DNA of 64,000 nt from Rhizophagus irregularis (Eukaryota; Glomeromycota; Glomeromycetes; Glomerales; Glomeraceae), in the NCBI RefSeq assembly GCF_026210795.1, contig NC_089455.1, positions 2,046,001 through 2,110,000 on the forward strand. The letters run 5' to 3'. Of this stretch, positions 47,405-64,000 are shown piece by piece (within the stretch, counting starts at the first letter, position 1; each line of letters begins with the position of its first letter). Position numbers and translations under genes: made by a program. A model generated the notes under the pieces. That model worked only from the letters and a program-made list of their open reading frames with translations. It did no database searches and was not told the DNA's origin.

Positions 47405-49353
47405 TTAAACTTTTGATCTTTTCGAATCACGATCACGATCACGATCACGAGCACGATCTCTATCACGTTCACGATCTCTATCACGATCTCTGTTGCGATC
47501 TCTGTCACGATCTCTGTCACGATCTCTGTCACGATCTCGATCGCGTTCTCGTTCTCGTTCACGATCTCGATCTCGATCTCGACTATTTCTTCTAGTGTGC
47601 CTAGAACTTGTTGATGATGATGAAGATGAATGGTTTGTTTTAGAGGATGATGCTATTGCTTCTGGAGCGGGCACGTCCCATTTACTAGCACGCTTTCGAC
47701 CTATTAATTAAGAAATTAATTAAAAAACACAATAAATTAACAAAGCATATTCATATGTACATTACCTGATGTGCTAGTCGATGTCCTGGAAATCGATGTT
47801 CTTATGGATGATGATGTGGTGTTTATAGCGGATGTAGCAGATGTAATGGATGTGGATTTTGCAGTAACACTATTACCACTTGAACCTCTTTCAGCTCTAG
47901 CAGCCAAACTTTGCATAACATGACGGGCTTTTGATATATTTTGTGTATTTGAAGAACCAACAAATTGTATTTGACTCCGCTGTTGTTGTTGCTGTGCTAA
48001 TGTACGTTCCTCCGCGATTCTCTTTTGGACTTCCGCTTTGAAATAAAAATAAATAATATCATATTCTGATCTATATTAAAAATTAAAATAACGAGCAGTA
48101 TAAATGTGCATGAATTTACCGAGTTGGTCCGCAAAGGCCTCTGGTGGAAATCCATAAGGATCGTAAACTTCTCGATCAAAATTTGACCCAATTTCATCTA
48201 ACTCCACGAATTCTACTAACTTATTATATATGTGAGGATTACGAAAAGCCTTATTTTTCAAAAGATTTTTATTAAAATGAACGCCTCTTTCTTTTAATTG
48301 GTAAAAATGTACGATCTTTGCCTTTAAATTTAGAACATGTTAAAAGTAAATTCAAATATATTATTTTAAATGCAAAAAATTTTTCAATTATAATACCTGA
48401 AGATCTTGATCACACTCTTTTTCAGGTTCAGGTGGAATACCCCAATTATCTTTGCCTTCAATTGGTTTGGGTGTTAATAATTGACGCATAAGAACTTGTC
48501 TATTGGCATAATCTGATTCATCGAATTGTGTATCCGTCTCCATTGGAGTTGTAGATATATTATCTCCAGTATCACTTTTTTGCTGTTCTACAGGCTCCGC
48601 AGCTTTTTGGTGTGGTGATAATATATTTATAACTGGGGATGAAACAACCTGCTTCGGTGATGCGGATAAGCCATCACGTTTATGTGGAGTTGGATTATTG
48701 TCTTTTCGACGGACTAAATTGGAAAAATCTGGAGATTGCGCCAGTGCTTTTTTAGGAAGCAGTATTGTTGGAGGTGGTGGTTTGATTGATTCTTCCTTTG
48801 ATTGTTTACCGCCTAAAATTCAAATTTGGCAAAATTCGGTTAAACTTTATTATGGTTGAATATACAAGTATTCCAATAAAACAAAAACACACCCAATGAC
48901 ATCACAATTAAATACCTAAACGGTATGTCCTTTCAATTACCTGTATCATTATGTACTATAGCTTGAGAATTATACGCACTCTGTTAGGAACCAAATTGTA
49001 GTCTTTTGTCAACTAACAAACTCTGCTCAACAATTTTATATAAAAAACATGCTCTTTAAAGAAACCATACTACGTTTTTAAGCCCATTACTAGCTTCGTT
49101 TCCTTCCTCTTCTTCGTCGCCTTCCTGATCATCGTCTTTATAGCTAACCAGACTGGATAGCCCCGGAGCTGTTTCGAAAATAAAATCAATATAACTTTTT
49201 GAAACCGTTAATGTCTTTGCGAGCTCTTGTTTGTAAAAGACTTTTACCTGAGATAGCTTTAATTGGTTTGGCTGTATTACCGTCCTTTTCAGTTTTTTGT
49301 TGTTGTTCGTCGTCTTCGTCGTCATAATAGTTAAGACCTAATAGGCTGTTCAT
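47405..49353 (-). CDS. SAP30BP: SAP30BP/HCNGP-like nuclear protein with Arg-Asp tail
   Basis: Seven minus-strand exons join in frame (49353-49248, 49168-49074, 48980-48941, 48812-48397, 48321-48120, 48035-47766, 47700-47405) to 474 residues; exon 3 is only 40 bases. It starts MNSLLGLNYYDDED, as in fungal members. The HCNGP domain spans about residues 203-286 ('WGIPPEPEKECDQDLQ', 'FRNPHIYNKLVEFVELDEIG', 'DPYGFPPEAF'). A late 'KRASKWD' matches the conserved SKWD of animal SAP30BP. The last 60 residues (about 410-470) are Arg-Asp/Arg-Glu dipeptides, like tails of splicing proteins. Family members act in transcriptional repression and pre-mRNA splicing in the nucleus. The symbol is by family only. 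Confidence 0.85.
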
Positions 49354-56773: not shown

Positions 56774-58704
56774 TTTATAAATATTAAGTCAATAAAAAGA
56801 ATTTTTTTTTTTTTGAAATATCTATCAATATATAATATAATAAAAAAATTTGTCTTCAAGAATAAAAGTAAAGAGAAAATTAAAATGGATTAAAATTTAT
56901 TCAAATCAAATGAAAAATCAATGTATTAAATGGTAATTTTTTAAATTACTAGATTGTACAGTTTTAGCATTTCTAACTAGTTTTTCTTGTTTAGATTTTT
57001 TTAGCTCCTTTTCTTTAAATCTTTTCAGCTTTTTTATTTCTTTTTCTTATTATTCTTCTTTTTCTCTTTTTTTTATACCTGTTCTTTTAATATTTTTGTA
57101 TTCTCTTATTATCTTATTATCTTTAAATTTCTTATTATTTTTTTACTTTTTTTCTTCATTTTTTCTTCTTATTTATTAGTTATTTTATTAGTTTCTTTAT
57201 TTCTTAATTCTTAATCCTACTTCTTTTTTTCTTTTTTTTCTTCTTTTATTATATTATATCCAGCTATTATAATTTAATGTATTTATTTCTTAATATAGCT
57301 TCAATTTTTTTTTGTAATATTCTTTTTAAATATATATTAACACTTAAAGTTTTAATACTTATATATAACTTTATTATTGTATTTTTTCTTATTCTAATAT
57401 CTATTACTAAATCTGTAAATCACTTGTTTTAATATCTAAATTATTCCTATCCTTTTAATTCCTTTTATCAAAATATATTCTATTAAAATTATATTAATAA
57501 TTCATTTATTATTTCCATTTTTATTAAATATTTAATTTAATTGTATAATTAATTTTGTCTATTTCTTTTCCTAACTTCATTATATTTACAGTATTACTTA
57601 TGTATATTCAATTCAGAAATTACTATCTTTTATTATTCTCTTTTAATATACTATTATAATATTTCCTATACTATTATTTAATATATACATAATATAAATT
57701 ATTATTCAAAAAATCTATTTGTTTTTTTACTCCAAATTTCCAATATCTATTATTAATTCTTTGATATTTCTTAAATTATTAATTATAGTATTTCAGTTAC
57801 TTTTATTAATTTTTTTACTATTATTATTAATTAATTCCTTTATTAATTTTTATTTAGTATATTCATTTAATTAGCTAATCATAAAAAAAAAATAATAATA
57901 ATTGGTTTATTTTAACAAGTATTAATAAAAAGAAAAAGTGATTTGTAAATGGATTTGTAGAAAATATAAAAGACCATTAAAAGTAGGATAAAAATTTTTA
58001 TATAAAAATTTTTTTGAAATAAAAAATAAAAAACTATTTGTAATTTATAGGAAAAAAAATCAGAAAAATATAATATATATAAAAAAGAAGATTATTTAAA
58101 AAACAGTATATTATATATTTGAAGAAAAAAATACATTATGTATAATAGAAATAGCAATAAAAAAAATATAATATTATAAAAAAAGAAAATATATAACAAA
58201 TTATTTATAGTGATAATGTATATTTTTTAAAAATTATAGTAAAAGTATATTAAAAAAAAAAAAAAAAAATTTAAAAAGTGTTTACAATAAAATTAATAGA
58301 CTAAAATATTGATAATATGATTATAATTATAGAAAAATTATATGAAAAAAAAGAAGAAATTAATAATCAATAGTAATAATAATAATAAAATATATTATGA
58401 TAGAATTTTTAGAAGAAATAAAATAAAAACTAATTTACTTCAAGAAAAAAAAATTTATCATTATAAAGTTTAGAATTGAAAATTTTTTCAAATTTTTGAA
58501 AAAAATAAAATAAGTATTATATAAAAATTATTATTATAAAAAAAAAATTTAATTGTAATATAAATATAAAAAAAATAAAAATAAAAAATATAATGTTTAT
58601 TATATTATAATAAATAATACATCAAAGAACTCTTTCCAATGATCCACATGTCCATTTTTTAGCAGAAAAATAATTTTGTTTTTTTTCATTTTATAGCCTA
58701 AAAT
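56774..58704. other. Low-complexity, strand-asymmetric AT region
   Basis: About 1.9 kb with almost no G or C. From about 56985 to 57880 the + strand is pyrimidine-rich (T with some C). From about 57890 to 58600 it turns purine-rich (A with some G), with an A-run near 58254-58270. No gene, and no exact inverted repeat between the halves that I can find. The last 100 bases before 58705 look normal. Confidence 0.6.
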
Positions 58705-59090
58705 ATGGCACACCTGGCCAAATACACTAATATTATTGACCTTGAACAGGTTACCAAACGTAATATTAATAAAAAGAATTTTTTTGACATCCTATGTATT
58801 GCCCTTCAGAAAGTAGAACTTACCAAACCAACCGCTATTCAAGGATATGTAGAGCGTATTTTACCAACTAAAGAATACAACAATACTGAAAACTTTGTTA
58901 AAGACTATAGATCCGTACTTAAGGAACTTGGTGTTAAGAATGAAGTTCAACTCACCTACTTGTTGTTTATTCTCGCCGCTGTTGCTAACGAGTATGAAGT
59001 CTCTTTGAAGAATTACATTGAGAAAACAATTCAAGAACAAGTAGTGCAGTTTGAGTCAACAGAATTAGCCAATGATACGCCAGTATCAAC

Positions 59091-60080
59091 TATACATGAA
59101 ACCGAAATTGGTTAATTTTGACCTCCGAAATGGTTGAAATGGTCAAAATGATTTCGACTTGAACCCCTCCAAAAATCAAAATGGTCGAAATTACGTCATA
59201 GTCATATGATTTTATAGTAAACAATAATATTAAAATTCAAAGTTAACGAACTCCGCATCCAGTGATTCGATTTTTATGATCTTTACACGGTTGGATTCAG
59301 CTCATCGAGAGGATTCCAATGATATGTATTTCATATTTGTAGCATCAATATTGACGGAGTTATTCACGTTTAAAATTTGGTATTAAATAGTCTTATAATT
59401 TTTATAGTAAACAATAATTTTAAAATTCAAAGTTAACGAACTCCGCATCCAGTGATTCGATTTTTATGATCTTTACGCGGTTGGATTCAGCTCATCGAGA
59501 GGATTCCAATGATATGTATTTCATATTTGTAGCATTAAGATTGACGGAGTTATTCACGTTTAAAATTTGGTATTAAATAGTCTTATAATTTTTATAGTAA
59601 ACAATAATTTTAAAATTCAAAGTTAACGAACTCCGCATCCAGTGATTCGATTTTTATGATCTTTACGCGGTTGGATTCAGCTCATCGAGAGGATTCCAAT
59701 GATATATATTTCATATTTGTAGCATTAAGATTGACGGAGTTATTCACGTTTAAAATTTGGTATTAAATAGTCTTATAATTTTTATAGTAAACAATAATTT
59801 TAAAATTCAAAGTTAACGAACTCCGCATCCAGTGATTCGATTTTTATGATCTTTATGCGGTTGGATTCAGCTCATCGAGAGGATTCCAATGATATGTATT
59901 TTATATCTGTAGCACCAATATTGGCGGAGTTATTCACATTTAGAATTTTATATTAAATTATAATTATAAAAATCATATAACTAGGATGTAATTTTGACCA
60001 TTTCGACTTTAATTTCGACTTTTGACCTTTCCAAGTCAAAATATTTATACTTTTGGGCTTTAATTTTGACTTCATATATA
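59091..60080. mobile_element. Inverted-repeat element A with four internal units
   Basis: 990 bp. The left end is TATACATGAAACCGAAATT; the right end in reverse complement is TATATATGAAGTCAAAATTA. It is flanked by the 8-bp direct repeat GTATCAAC (59083-59090 and 60081-60088). Subterminal regions repeat TCGAAATGG/CCATTTCGAC motifs. The middle is a tandem array of four 190-bp units. No ORF of its own. Its sister, element B (63566-63984), is the same structure in opposite orientation with one unit. 8-bp duplication suggests hAT-like or another 8-bp superfamily; the TATA-starting ends are unusual. Confidence 0.93.
59211..59970. repeat. Four tandem 190-bp units
   Basis: TTTATAGTAAACAATA starts a unit at 59211, 59401, 59591 and 59781, and AGTTAACGAA recurs at 59241, 59431, 59621 and 59811, so the period is exactly 190 bp. 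The units differ at few positions (e.g. TTTACACGG, TTTACGCGG, TTTACGCGG, TTTATGCGG). The second and third are most alike, as expected for recent unequal exchange. Confidence 0.95.
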
Positions 60081-61267
60081 GTATCAACAGAAGTACAGCC
60101 GATGGAAACAGAAATTTTTGATAATGTCAAACATCAATTAATGGATGTAGACTGTGACAATCAAAATAATGAACACCAATCAGAGAATGTGATTGCAGAA
60201 TCTTCAATAAAGAACTCTAAAGTCTAAACAGAGTTCCACAAAACTGAACGCCAAAGCCACTCCCTATATCCCAAAAGGAAAAGGACATACTGTTACATTT
60301 GCAGAAATGGCCTCCAGGAACCTAGATACAAGCAGTAACTGTGATACCTTTCTGACTCCACCTGGTAATAGGCAAAAAGTTAACATGACCAAGCATTCAG
60401 CGTCCAATAGCAAGACTCAACTAGCTAAGAATAAACAACAACACGCTCCTCCAAAAGAAATACAATCAGTAATAACTGGATATGATCCAGTACTTAAGGA
60501 CAATGTTCAGAAAATTACTTTATATAATATCCCCTCAACTTGAACTTCTCCAGCATCTTGAGAAATGGGATCACATGATTGCTTTCGAGACTAAACGTCA
60601 GAAGAAATATTTAACGATCACTGTCTTTATCGACTTCAATGAGTGGACTATAAGTCTATAAAATCAAGAAGTCTGGACCGCTCCTTTAGAAGGACTTCTT
60701 GTCCGATGGTATCCTGCTAACTGAAATCTTCAACAAAGAAAGGAAAGAGAACGATTTCAGGCTGTGGTGAAAGATTTACCTGGAACTGTCACCACTTTGA
60801 TGCTTTATTCATTGGATCCTTCTCAATCACCTATATTCCATTTGGGATGCAAAGCTTTTAAGGTGGTTCAAGAGAAACGTACCTGCAAGCTTATCACGTA
60901 TTATGAAAATTGGGCTGATTTGGATAAAATCATGAATACCAAGTTGAATTTGCAAGAATATAAAGGTGTTTGGACTAGGTATTTCTCGCTTCAACTATCT
61001 AAAGGTTGTAATCAATCACTAAGAAGTGGCCAAAATCAAAAACAGAATCGAAACAGCGGCACAAAGGTTGTAACAAATACTACAGATAATAAGATTAAGA
61101 TGAGCAATCCTATTGGAAAGAAACACATATTTTCAACTTTAAAGAATATGAAAAAAGGGTTGGATGGTAGTGAATCTGGCAAACTAACATTATTAGCAGA
61201 AATTAGATCATTCCTAAGAAGGCTTGAGAATGACGGGATAGTGCAGCGCCTTGGTGACTATATGTAG

Positions 61268-61494
61268 ATTTGTGGTTACTAGTCGAAATAGTCCAAATCG
61301 GCTAGAAATCAGATGTCCGATTTTAGGCTGAATTTGGTGATAAAGATGGCCGATTTATTAATTTTGGAAAAGTTCTGATTGGCAGGCCGATTGATGCCGA
61401 TCAGAATATCCAAATTGTATCTGAATTGCTTAGTATTTTTAATCCGAATTGTTTAAAAAAATATATTCATAAATTTACCGAATTTATTCTGAAT
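61268..61494. other. Short noncoding stretch after the transposon ORF
   Basis: Contains repeated GGCCGATT / GCCGAT motifs near 61300-61410 (related to the GCCGATTT motif of the tandem repeat further right). No ORF. Confidence 0.45.
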
Positions 61495-61805
61495 TATGGT
61501 AAATTTGTGGCAAAATTTTCTGAATTGCAGTAATATTTATTCCGAATTGTCATAAAATTTATTCCAAATTATAGTAGAATTTATTCCGAATTGTAGTAAA
61601 ATTTATTCTGAATTGCAATAAAAATTTATTCCGAATTATAGTAAAATTTATTCTGATTTGTAGTAAATTTATTCTGAATTGTAGTAAATTTATTCTGATT
61701 TGTAGTAAAATTTATTCTGATTTGTAGTAAAAATTTATTCTGATTTGTAGTAAAATTTATTCTGAATTATAGTAAAATTTATTCTGAATTGTATCACAAA
61801 TTACA
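61495..61805. repeat. Minisatellite, ~21-23 bp unit
   Basis: About 14 head-to-tail units of AAATTTATTCTGAATTGTAGT, with variants GATTTGTAGT and CCGAATTATAGT. Units on the left are more diverged than those in the middle. Confidence 0.85.
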
Positions 61806-62187
61806 GTAAATATTACATATACATATAAAACAATTTCACCAAAAATCATCCCAACTTTCTAACAAATCCGGTATACGTTAAATTCCTTAATTCCCATTCA
61901 TTTCTACAAATTGGAAACGATTTTCCTACAAAAAAAAAAGAAAAAACGTTAACGTTTTTTTTCAAGTTTCAAGTTTTGAAAATCAAAACATTACCTGTAG
62001 GATGACAAATCTGAGCCGATTTCCCTAATAAAATATAATAAAAAAAAATGTTAAATTAAACATTTTTTATTAAGTTTCGTCAAAAAGTTTTGAAAATCGA
62101 AACTTAACCTGCGGGATTCCGGTATCCAAATTGGAGCCGATTTTCCTGCAAAAAAAAAAATAATAACAAATTAAAAAACGTTAAAAT

Positions 62188-63384
62188 TAAAGCTCCGAAC
62201 GGGTCAGTTTGGTCCGGATTATAGACGGTTCGGATTAGAGCCGAAATCCGTAAGAACCGAACCGAAAAACCGGCGGTTCGGTTCAGTTTAATCCGATTTT
62301 CATAAAAATGCGAAAAATCGAATAGCCGGCCATCTAGTGATCGTATAAATTCGAGCCATATATCATTGGATTCGTCTCGACGAGACGCGTCGAATGGTGG
62401 TAAGATCAGGTCTCTAGCATCGATAGATCACACGTTAACCCACGCTAAATGATTTATAAATAATTGGAATTAGCAAGCTATCTATCAGTGCTATAGACAT
62501 GATCTTAGCACCATTCGACGCGTCTCAGTGAGACGAATCCAATGAATATAAATTCGTTCGTGTACGACCACTGGATGGCGAATAATATCAAGTTTCGCAT
62601 TTTTTTAAAATTTTCGAGCGTTAAAAATTAAAAATTCCGATACATGAATTTATTCGTCGCCCAATGGTCGTACAAATATGAAATAGGACTCATTGGATTC
62701 GTCTCAATGAGACGAGTCGAATGGTGGTGAGTTCATGTCTCTAGCATCAATAGATCGTAAGTTAATTCACGCTAAATGATTTATAAAAAATTGGCATTAG
62801 CAAGCTATCTATCGATGCTAGAGACGTGATCTTACCACCATTCGACTCGTCTCATTGAGACGAATCCAATGAGTCCTATTTCATATTTGTACGACCATTG
62901 GACGACGAATAAATTCATGTATCGGAATTTTTAATTTTTAACGCCGAAAATTTTAAAAAATGCGAAACTTGATATTATTCGCCATCCAGTGGTCGTACAC
63001 GAACGAATTTATATTCATTGGATTTGTCTCACTGAGACGCGTCGAATGGTGCTAAGATCATGTCTCTAGCACCGATAGATAGCTTGCTAATTCCAATTAT
63101 TTATAAATCATTTAGCGTGGGTTAACGTGTGATATATCGATGCTAGAGACCTGATCTTACCACCATTCGACGCGTCTCGTCGAGACGAATCCAATGATAT
63201 ATGGCTCGACTTTGTATGATTACTAGATGGCCGGCTATTCGATTTTTCGCATTTTTATAAAAAATCGGATTAAACCGAACCGAACCGCCGGTTTTTCGGT
63301 TCTAATACCTGAACCGAACCGAACCGAATTTTGAGCCGGTTTCGGATCGGTTCCCCAGTTTAGCCCGAACCATTCGGAGCTTTA
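62188..63384. mobile_element. 1.2-kb near-palindromic element C
   Basis: 1197 bp with ends TAAAGCTCCGAA / TTCGGAGCTTTA and the flanking 8-bp direct repeat GTTAAAAT (62180-62187 and 63385-63392). The two halves are long imperfect inverted repeats around about 62786, so almost the whole element can fold into one hairpin. Each half contains smaller palindromes (GTCTCGACGAGAC, GTCTCAGTGAGAC, GTCTCAATGAGAC). No ORF. The arms match closely, so the element looks young or is kept alike by copying. Confidence 0.93.
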
Positions 63385-63565
63385 GTTAAAATACACGTTT
63401 TTTTATTAAGTTTCGAAAATATGAAACTTTACCTATAGGATTGGCCAATTCAGAGCCGATTTCCTATAAAAAATATAAAAAACATTAAAAATAAACGTTT
63501 TTTATAAAAGTTTCAAAGTTCCAAAGAACTTTGAAACTTTACCTATAGAATTGGCCAATTCAGAG

Positions 63566-63984
63566 TATATATGAAGTTGAAATTAAAGCCCAAAAGTAGA
63601 AATATTTCGACTTTGAAGGTCAAAAGTCGAAATTAAAGTCGAAATGGTCGAAATTACATCATAGTCATGTGATTTTTATAATTATAATTTAATATAAAAT
63701 TTTAAACGTGAATAACTCCGTCAATATTGATGGTACAGATATGATATACATATCATTGGAATCCTCTCGATGAGCTGAATCCAACCGCATAAAGATCATA
63801 AAAATCGAATCACTGGATGCGGAGATCGTTAACTTTGAATTTTAATATTATTGTTTACTATAAAATCATATGACTATGACGTAATTTCGACCATTTTGAC
63901 TTTTGGAGGGGCTCAAGTCGAAATCATTTCGACCATTTCGACCATTTCGGAGGTCAAAATTAACCAATTTCGGTTTCATGTATA
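63566..63984. mobile_element. Inverted-repeat element B, single unit
   Basis: 419 bp, inverted relative to element A. The left end is TATATATGAAGTTGAAATTA; the right end in reverse complement is TATACATGAAACCGAAATT. It is flanked by the 8-bp direct repeat ATTCAGAG (63558-63565 and 63985-63992). It has one copy of the 190-bp unit. Length difference to element A is 571, that is three units plus one base. Confidence 0.93.
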
Positions 63985-64000
63985 ATTCAGAGCCGATTTC

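Follow-up and report, generated by a model that had tools for sequence, protein, structure and literature searches.

Two publications, in their accessible parts, describe miniature inverted-repeat transposable elements (MITEs) that hold a variable number of tandem units internally, and a path from such elements to satellite DNA, in Xenopus (miDNA4, Xstir), clams and other animals (PMC12628747, PMC9659126). We report here a family of this kind in the fungus Rhizophagus irregularis, which is present with two copies, element A with four units and element B with one unit of 190 bp, in a stretch of 64,000 nucleotides (contig NC_089455.1, positions 2,046,001 to 2,110,000; C27:2046001-2110000) that is called the window in the following.

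As far as the excerpts of the cited papers go, miDNA4 of Xenopus tropicalis (Scalvenzi and Pollet 2014; PMC12628747, PMC9659126) resembles our family by a satellite-like monomer that lies in a MITE singly or as a variable array. It has been placed in Tc1/mariner, and a link to a satellite is described, whereas our family has a target site duplication (TSD) of 8 bp, no assigned superfamily and no free array that we could find. In Xstir, likewise from Xenopus (Hikosaka and Kawahara 2004; PMC12628747), tandem repeats derived from internal MITE sequence are carried by the element, but separate tandem arrays and composites are also reported, while the arrays of our family were found only within the element. 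The MITEs of the clam Donax trunculus (Satovic and Plohl 2013; PMC12628747) are alike in having internal tandem repeats, to judge by the title alone. The foldback element Tetris of Drosophila virilis is non-autonomous as well, with tandem units of about 220 bp in variable number, TSDs of 8-10 bp and no transposase-bearing copy found, according to the part of the paper at hand (PMC4079207). In Tetris long terminal inverted repeats contain the units, which also occur as satellite-like arrays of kb size (PMC4079207), whereas our family has one central array of a single orientation between short arms (107 and 123 bp), which is not a foldback layout, and no free arrays were found.

The constant ends and the internal units in variable number (1-7 in 46 intact arrays) identify the family as a known kind of element, a tandem-repeat MITE. 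New are this fungal family itself and its unusually complete ladder of unit numbers. No match to the family turned up in a literature search limited to titles and the first lines of abstracts, which does not prove its absence from print. How a transposon gives rise to a tandem array is usually deduced in retrospect. Here its early stages seem to coexist in one genome: a founding duplication, the spread of a two-unit form, gains in blocks of one to three units, probable losses and arrays that reach seven units, while no escape as a satellite was found.

Elements A and B

Element A (59091..60080, plus strand) is a complete four-unit copy of 990 bp with the termini TATACATGAA...TTCATATATA. On the same strand its left arm of 107 bp (59091..59197) is followed by unit 1 (59198..59387), the first letters of which, ATAGTC, are the stretch repeated by every later junction, by units 2 (59388..59577) and 3 (59578..59767), by unit 4, which is of the last type (59768..59957), and by a right arm of 123 bp (59958..60080), the inner part of which is inverted-complementary to the inner left side. 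Reading of the flanks gives the TSD GTATCAAC directly before (59083..59090) and after the element (60081..60088). Element B (63566..63984, minus strand) is a complete one-unit copy of 419 bp with the same arms as A. Its single unit (63688..63877, minus strand) bears first-unit markers through column 32 and last-unit markers from column 53, and the TSD ATTCAGAG stands at 63558..63565 and again at 63985..63992. An unoccupied paralogue of this target site (TTGGCCAATTCAGAGCCGATTTC) is present at 63441..63463 on the plus strand, hence the target duplication of B is genuine.

In inverted orientation A and B match over 301 nt at 96% (left end and unit 1), 250 nt at 95% (unit 4 and inner right arm) and 59 nt at 86% (right end). 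This agrees with the initial annotation, according to which both are copies of one non-autonomous family that were inserted independently, each with its own 8-bp TSD. The difference in length, 990 − 419 = 571 bp, is indeed three units of 190 bp plus one base as had been stated there. A tandem-repeat scan of the window reports the array at 59198-59958 with period 190 (4.0 copies, 96% matches, score 1389). Units 2 and 3 are the closest pair within A with 99.3% identity in columns 36-178, compared to 93.0-97.9% for the other five pairs, and the claim that they are recent duplicates holds as well.

An open frame at 58702-59115 enters element A, and a second one extends from its right end (59985) to 60227. 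Given these frames on both sides (58702-60227), A may interrupt a gene; a scan of the frames against Pfam gave no match above the cut-off.

The family in the genome

The search space was the genome of 146,748,485 bases on 32 contigs. With up to three mismatches allowed and the reversed pattern as control, the left-end pattern has 107 matches and the right-end pattern 118, compared to 0 for either control. Family counts are lower bounds, as 100 of the 107 left ends, 100 of the 118 right ends and 100 of 182 unit cores were listed. Of 120 subterminal matches 100 were listed, and 15 of these were joined by eye to the left-end set for the pairing with junctions. The sequence searches scored the best candidates, 40 of 206 in the DNA search for family copies, 150 of 835 for the hAT domain and 150 of 463 for the transposase.

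From the listed ends at least 79 pairs of a left and a right end closer than 8 kb were obtained. The length of 56 of the 79 pairs falls within 20 bp of 230 + 190n with n = 1-7, where approximately 22% would be expected for random lengths; five of these 56 fits (L047, L055, L061, L077, L104) are known to be coincidental and result from inserts or other changes. The loci that we read cover 62 of the 79 end pairs, with most lone ends on C16-C32 outside the set. Both ends are present in 57 rows, which represent 55 distinct copies, and a perfect 8-bp TSD flanks 30 of these 55 copies, plus element A. The termini are near-identical and short (TATAYATGAA). We regarded 46 arrays as intact, namely 63 element rows minus 17 with a length that does not match the count of near-full units. 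One unit occurs in 15 of them, two units in 19, which is the commonest form, three in seven, four in one (A), five in two, six in one and seven in one (C25:1140037-1141596). A second run of four units at C1:2767793-2768221 has a left end, and no right end was found nearby. The four-unit form is one rung in a ladder from one to seven units, contrary to one case that the initial annotation had named as refuting it, a unique form caused by an assembly error. The multiplication of a unit in tandem inside the element, as initially proposed, is supported.

The intact arrays span approximately 0.4-1.6 kb and are composed of arms and units without a transposase gene. Terminal inverted repeats, a fixed 8-bp TSD, short length, lack of transposase and many dispersed copies are all features of MITEs. 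A size range of 50 bp-1 kb is given for MITEs in the accessible part of a study of transposable elements in R. irregularis (PMC11075540), and this range is exceeded by forms with five or more units. Because of its ends, its 8-bp TSDs and the absence of genes, the family to which A and B belong is a non-autonomous, MITE-like cut-and-paste DNA transposon.

A probable founding duplication

A 50-bp pattern spanning the junction between units has 97 genome matches with up to three mismatches, 59 of them exact, compared to 0 for the control. From ATAGTC onward the junction can be aligned with the inner left side of the element, from which it differs by derived bases at columns 6, 10, 12 and 32; the middle and last units of 31 multi-unit arrays have these bases with few exceptions. 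This one common junction, its alignment to the inner left side and its derived bases are an argument that the first duplication copied the interior of the element itself, which seems to have happened, most simply, once. It weighs against a single event that a junction search by its nature favors similar junctions.

For the 19 two-unit copies, comparison of unit 1 with unit 2 inside a copy gives 93.3% identity in columns 36-178, while between copies the values are 94.7% for unit 1 against unit 1 and 94.0% for unit 2 against unit 2. As the units of one copy are no more alike than units of different copies, the duplication would be older than the spread, and the two-unit form seems to predate the dispersal of these copies.

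Later gains within copies

Where an array has at least three units, its middle units are 98.4% identical to each other (23 pairs), compared to 94.6% between arrays (253 pairs). In arrays of at least four units the nearest unit lies in the own array for 16 of the 17 middle units. Identical units in columns 36-178 occur with a block period of one unit (L070, u2=u3), two units (L095, u2=u4 and u3=u5; L004, u1=u3) and three units (L006, u2=u5 and u3=u6). Since middle units are more alike within than between arrays, the later gains are copy-specific, and the duplicated blocks comprise one to three units.

Two loci add to this picture. The three-unit copy L077 (C10:2076956-2078328) carries a 284-bp insert with its own inverted ends GGTCAAGTAAATAAAATTATTCGTTTCTCAT and TTA flanks at the same point of both junctions, and the two inserts are 98.2% alike. 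The array was therefore rearranged after another element had landed in it, and the unit was duplicated or converted together with the lodged foreign element. The three-unit copies L017 and L103 are 99.4% identical and reside on different contigs with different flanks, so that a gained form is able to transpose again.

One-unit copies and probable losses

Units differ according to their position in the array. A middle unit has the start of a last unit and the end of a first unit; the first-type GG occupies columns 182-183 in 24 out of 24. In single units the start is that of a first unit and the end that of a last unit, with the last-type A at column 183 in 14 out of 15. The marker states of first and last units were taken from the 19 two-unit copies and those of single units from the 15 one-unit copies. 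At column 53, single units have 13 A and 2 T, compared to 18 A and 1 G in first units and 13 T and 6 A in last units. At column 90 single units have 10 A and 5 G (first units 14 A and 5 G, last units 18 G and 1 A), and at column 140 they have 7 T, 7 C and 1 A (first units 17 T and 2 C, last units 18 C and 1 T). In element B the switch from the first to the last type falls in the interval from column 32 to column 53. B appears to be a product of loss rather than an unexpanded ancestor.

The middle and the single unit types are the reciprocal products predicted by misaligned exchange, which is an argument for both gains and losses. The expansion noted in the initial annotation stands, with the correction that the number most likely changes both ways. 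The one-unit copies likely represent several separate losses by deletion between units, although recurrence is not proven, and presumably most of the present one-unit copies were made by such recurrent losses. By their arms, the nearest relative is a multi-unit copy for 14 out of 15 one-unit copies and a one-unit copy for the remaining one. Over the whole family a copy agrees in unit number with its closest relative by arms in 10.8 out of 46 cases compared to 13.3 by shuffling, and a tree of the arms, built from 59 of the 63 rows, requires 28 changes of unit number compared to 27.6 with shuffled labels. Size classes breed true in part, as in L017 and L103, but over the family unit number follows no lineage.

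Several observations weigh against recurrent loss. The fixed ends of the single units would equally fit a unit that was never duplicated, so that the internal mixture is the informative part. A single switch from first to last type fits 13 out of 15 single units, but approximately 11 are expected with independent markers by hand calculation, and the excess is not significant; L013 and L094 do not fit a single switch, and odd states occur at the edge markers of L079 and L110. Resolution of the tree of the arms is poor (2 of 56 inner branches starred). That so few one-unit copies have a one-unit nearest neighbor is suggestive only, with a permutation value of 0.063. In approximately unbiased (AU) tests neither a single origin of the 15 clean one-unit copies (p = 0.063) nor one of the 16 copies that have at least three units (p = 0.135) was rejected. 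Because these tests leave the monophyly of the size classes standing, independent losses are not proved. Arms and units could also have been mixed by gene conversion between copies.

Search for free arrays

The 97 junctions form 68 runs, of which 52 comprise two units, ten three, two four, two five, one six and one seven units. Within 2 kb of 94 of the 97 junctions lies a listed family end or left arm on the same strand, and 71 have both sides. Of the three remaining junctions one is inside a match of the DNA search that contains a left end, and one has a left arm 4.2 kb upstream; for the third (C17:624143) there is no listed end within 2 kb. The junction pattern revealed no free array of the 190-bp unit outside the element, although more diverged arrays would escape it. 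A separate satellite made of the unit, the other refuting case of the initial annotation, was not found either. With seven units in the longest run found, long head-to-tail arrays of the monomer, as known from some tandem-repeat MITEs, were not found by this search. Seeding of satellites by this family, which the initial annotation had considered as a possible route, is not supported.

Proposed mechanism and alternative explanations

We propose that a single tandem duplication of the interior, by which TATTAAAT was joined to AGTC with an overlap of about 2 bp at most, would have created the two-unit form, and that this form would have been dispersed by a putative transposase acting in trans. 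Individual copies at rest would then most likely have gained and lost units, by exchange or slippage between units that depends on homology. Misaligned exchange could fuse the start of a first unit to the end of a last unit, which would lead to one-unit copies such as B, or the start of a last unit to the end of a first unit, which would lead to middle units as in A, and gained forms are able to move again. Exchange or replication-repair between units is presumably the cause of the changes in number, and the units themselves probably have no function of their own. Leaving the timing aside, we consider this sequence of founding duplication, spread and exchange between units, by whichever route, to be quite probable.

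As for the timing, the main alternative is that unit number changes during transposition, when the gap left after excision is repaired from a sister copy and strand annealing slips between units. The anatomy would be the same, with gains and losses bound to mobility instead of recombination in resting copies. Internal tandem repeats are altered by gap repair in other systems. Cut-and-paste termini with 8-bp TSDs, a unit number uncorrelated with the relatedness of the arms and gains in blocks of 1-3 units would all agree with such a coupling. The rearrangement in L077 with its lodged second element is equally explained by recombination in a resting copy, however, and no observation links a change of number to excision, which leaves the coupling tenable but doubtful. 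That array length is re-drawn at every round of transposition by gap repair slipping between units is a reading that we consider unlikely. If true, a two-unit master would continually yield longer forms as well as one-unit dead ends, which would be hard to re-expand because homology is wanting, and the family would be a natural recorder of the outcomes of excision repair in a fungus long considered clonal.

The size classes might instead be old subfamilies, with one-, two- and three-unit masters that transpose separately and little later change of number. Three-unit copies L017, L102 and L103 have a rare base at column 121 in common, the near-identity of L017 and L103 (99.4%) implies that some three-unit copies stem from a three-unit parent, and the AU test does not reject, at the 0.05 level, that the one-unit copies form a single clade. 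Yet unit number does not cluster on the tree of the arms (28 changes compared to 27.6), a nearest copy of the same number is not in excess (10.8 of 46 compared to 13.3), and the longer arrays hold their own within-array duplicates; taken together this makes subfamilies improbable. Capture of a pre-existing satellite by the element, as is proposed for miDNA4 of Xenopus in the available part of PMC12628747, would be in line with a 25-bp motif that the unit has in common with a second repeat family with 327-bp units. It is very improbable in view of the junction search, which yielded no array outside the element (seven units in the longest of 68 runs, 94 of 97 junctions within 2 kb of family ends), and of a junction that copies the inner left side of the element and fits a duplication from within. 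Finally, our judgement rests on the assembly, in which repeats might have been collapsed or expanded. Such junctions occur by our count on 27 of the 32 contigs with different flanks and the same 190-bp spacing, and the arrays measure at most about 1.6 kb in an assembly based on Nanopore reads. For GCA_026210795.1 (R. irregularis DAOM197198) a uniform coverage of 77-85x on all nuclear contigs is stated in the accessible part of its description (PMC10234402). An assembly artefact is hardly conceivable under these circumstances.

Superfamily and autonomous partner

The 8-bp TSD agrees in length with the hAT superfamily, which has the TSD preference nTnnnnAn. Among the 30 perfect TSDs both positions of this consensus are present in 11, T at position 2 in 19 and A at position 7 in 17, and by our reading the 30 sequences lean towards a palindromic RTYnnRAY shape, which is reminiscent of hAT. 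The usual hAT terminus is of the YAnnG kind, e.g. CAGGG or TAGGG. The termini of our family, TATAC or TATAT in nearly all copies, are not of this kind, and because of this difference the family is not filed as hAT.

An autonomous partner is not established, which speaks against our account; there is one weak lead (L051/L052). In locus L051 (C2:4055586, a right end), a frame approximately 1.1 kb inside the right end gives a hAT-like RNase-H match (E 2.2e-7). The locus has a neighboring tandem repeat of about 140 bp in common with L052 (C3:3268649, a left end). This repeat lies at 2461-3900 of L051 and 480-1200 of L052 and consists of palindromic AACGGTTA..TAACCGTT cores followed by a purine-rich stretch. 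Its pattern has 32 genome matches in about 12 clusters by our count, of which only the L051 cluster is near a listed family end; the repeat of L052 itself is too diverged for the pattern. Both loci may be two more insertions into the family or the relic of an autonomous relative, and the 140-bp repeat perhaps represents a further family with multiplied units that is tied to a hAT-like element.

Two further loci were considered as autonomous copies and rejected. The 4,485 bp at C18:73394-77878 are a three-unit copy with the TSD GTTCTTTG in which a separate hAT element is nested in unit 1. This nested element (C18:73646-77323; L115, L107) has the terminal inverted repeat TAGGGATGGTATC and the TSD TTTGTAGC, its BED finger and hAT dimerisation domain lie in separate frames, and a similar transposase together with matching ends is found at C12:1166222-1170142 and C17:2168255-2171310. 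The second locus, with a left end at C2:3401242 and a right end at C2:3423277 (L048, L049), is a three-unit copy with the TSD ACCTGAAC that we read as carrying an insertion. Its ends are 22 kb apart and bracket approximately 21 kb, the borders of which (GACTGGACCAA... and ...TTGGTCCAGCC, with TAA on both sides) are like those of another transposon. Frames in the insert match Dimer_Tnp_hAT with E 9.9e-8, and DUF659 and DDE_3 below the cut-off. From these borders and frames we read it as a probable very large or multiply nested insertion.

Matches to the hAT domain were also observed at C18:3173810 and C29:1017342. The same foreign insert of 1.48 kb, 98% alike, is present in L065 (699-2180) and L086 (748-2220), at different points of the two copies.

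Neighboring repeats in the window

Between A and B, at 62187-63386, lies an element with quasi-palindromic units of 327 bp and a long inverted and tandem structure, the arms of which (62297-62613 and 62947-63263) are 97% complementary. The 25-bp motif shared by these 327-bp units and the 190-bp unit is TCATTGGAWTCSTCTCRAYGAGMYG. It has 317 exact matches in the genome, MITE units included, compared to 0 for the control, and among the 100 of 317 matches listed many are at a spacing of 158/327 bp. The motif is common to two repeat families with multiplied units. Two simpler arrays complete the repeats noted in the window: an imperfect 22-bp tandem array between A and B at 61518-61793 (TTCTGAATTGTAGTAAAATTTA, 12.5 copies) and a 12-bp tandem array at 47426-47582 (ATCTCGATCACG, 13.1 copies).

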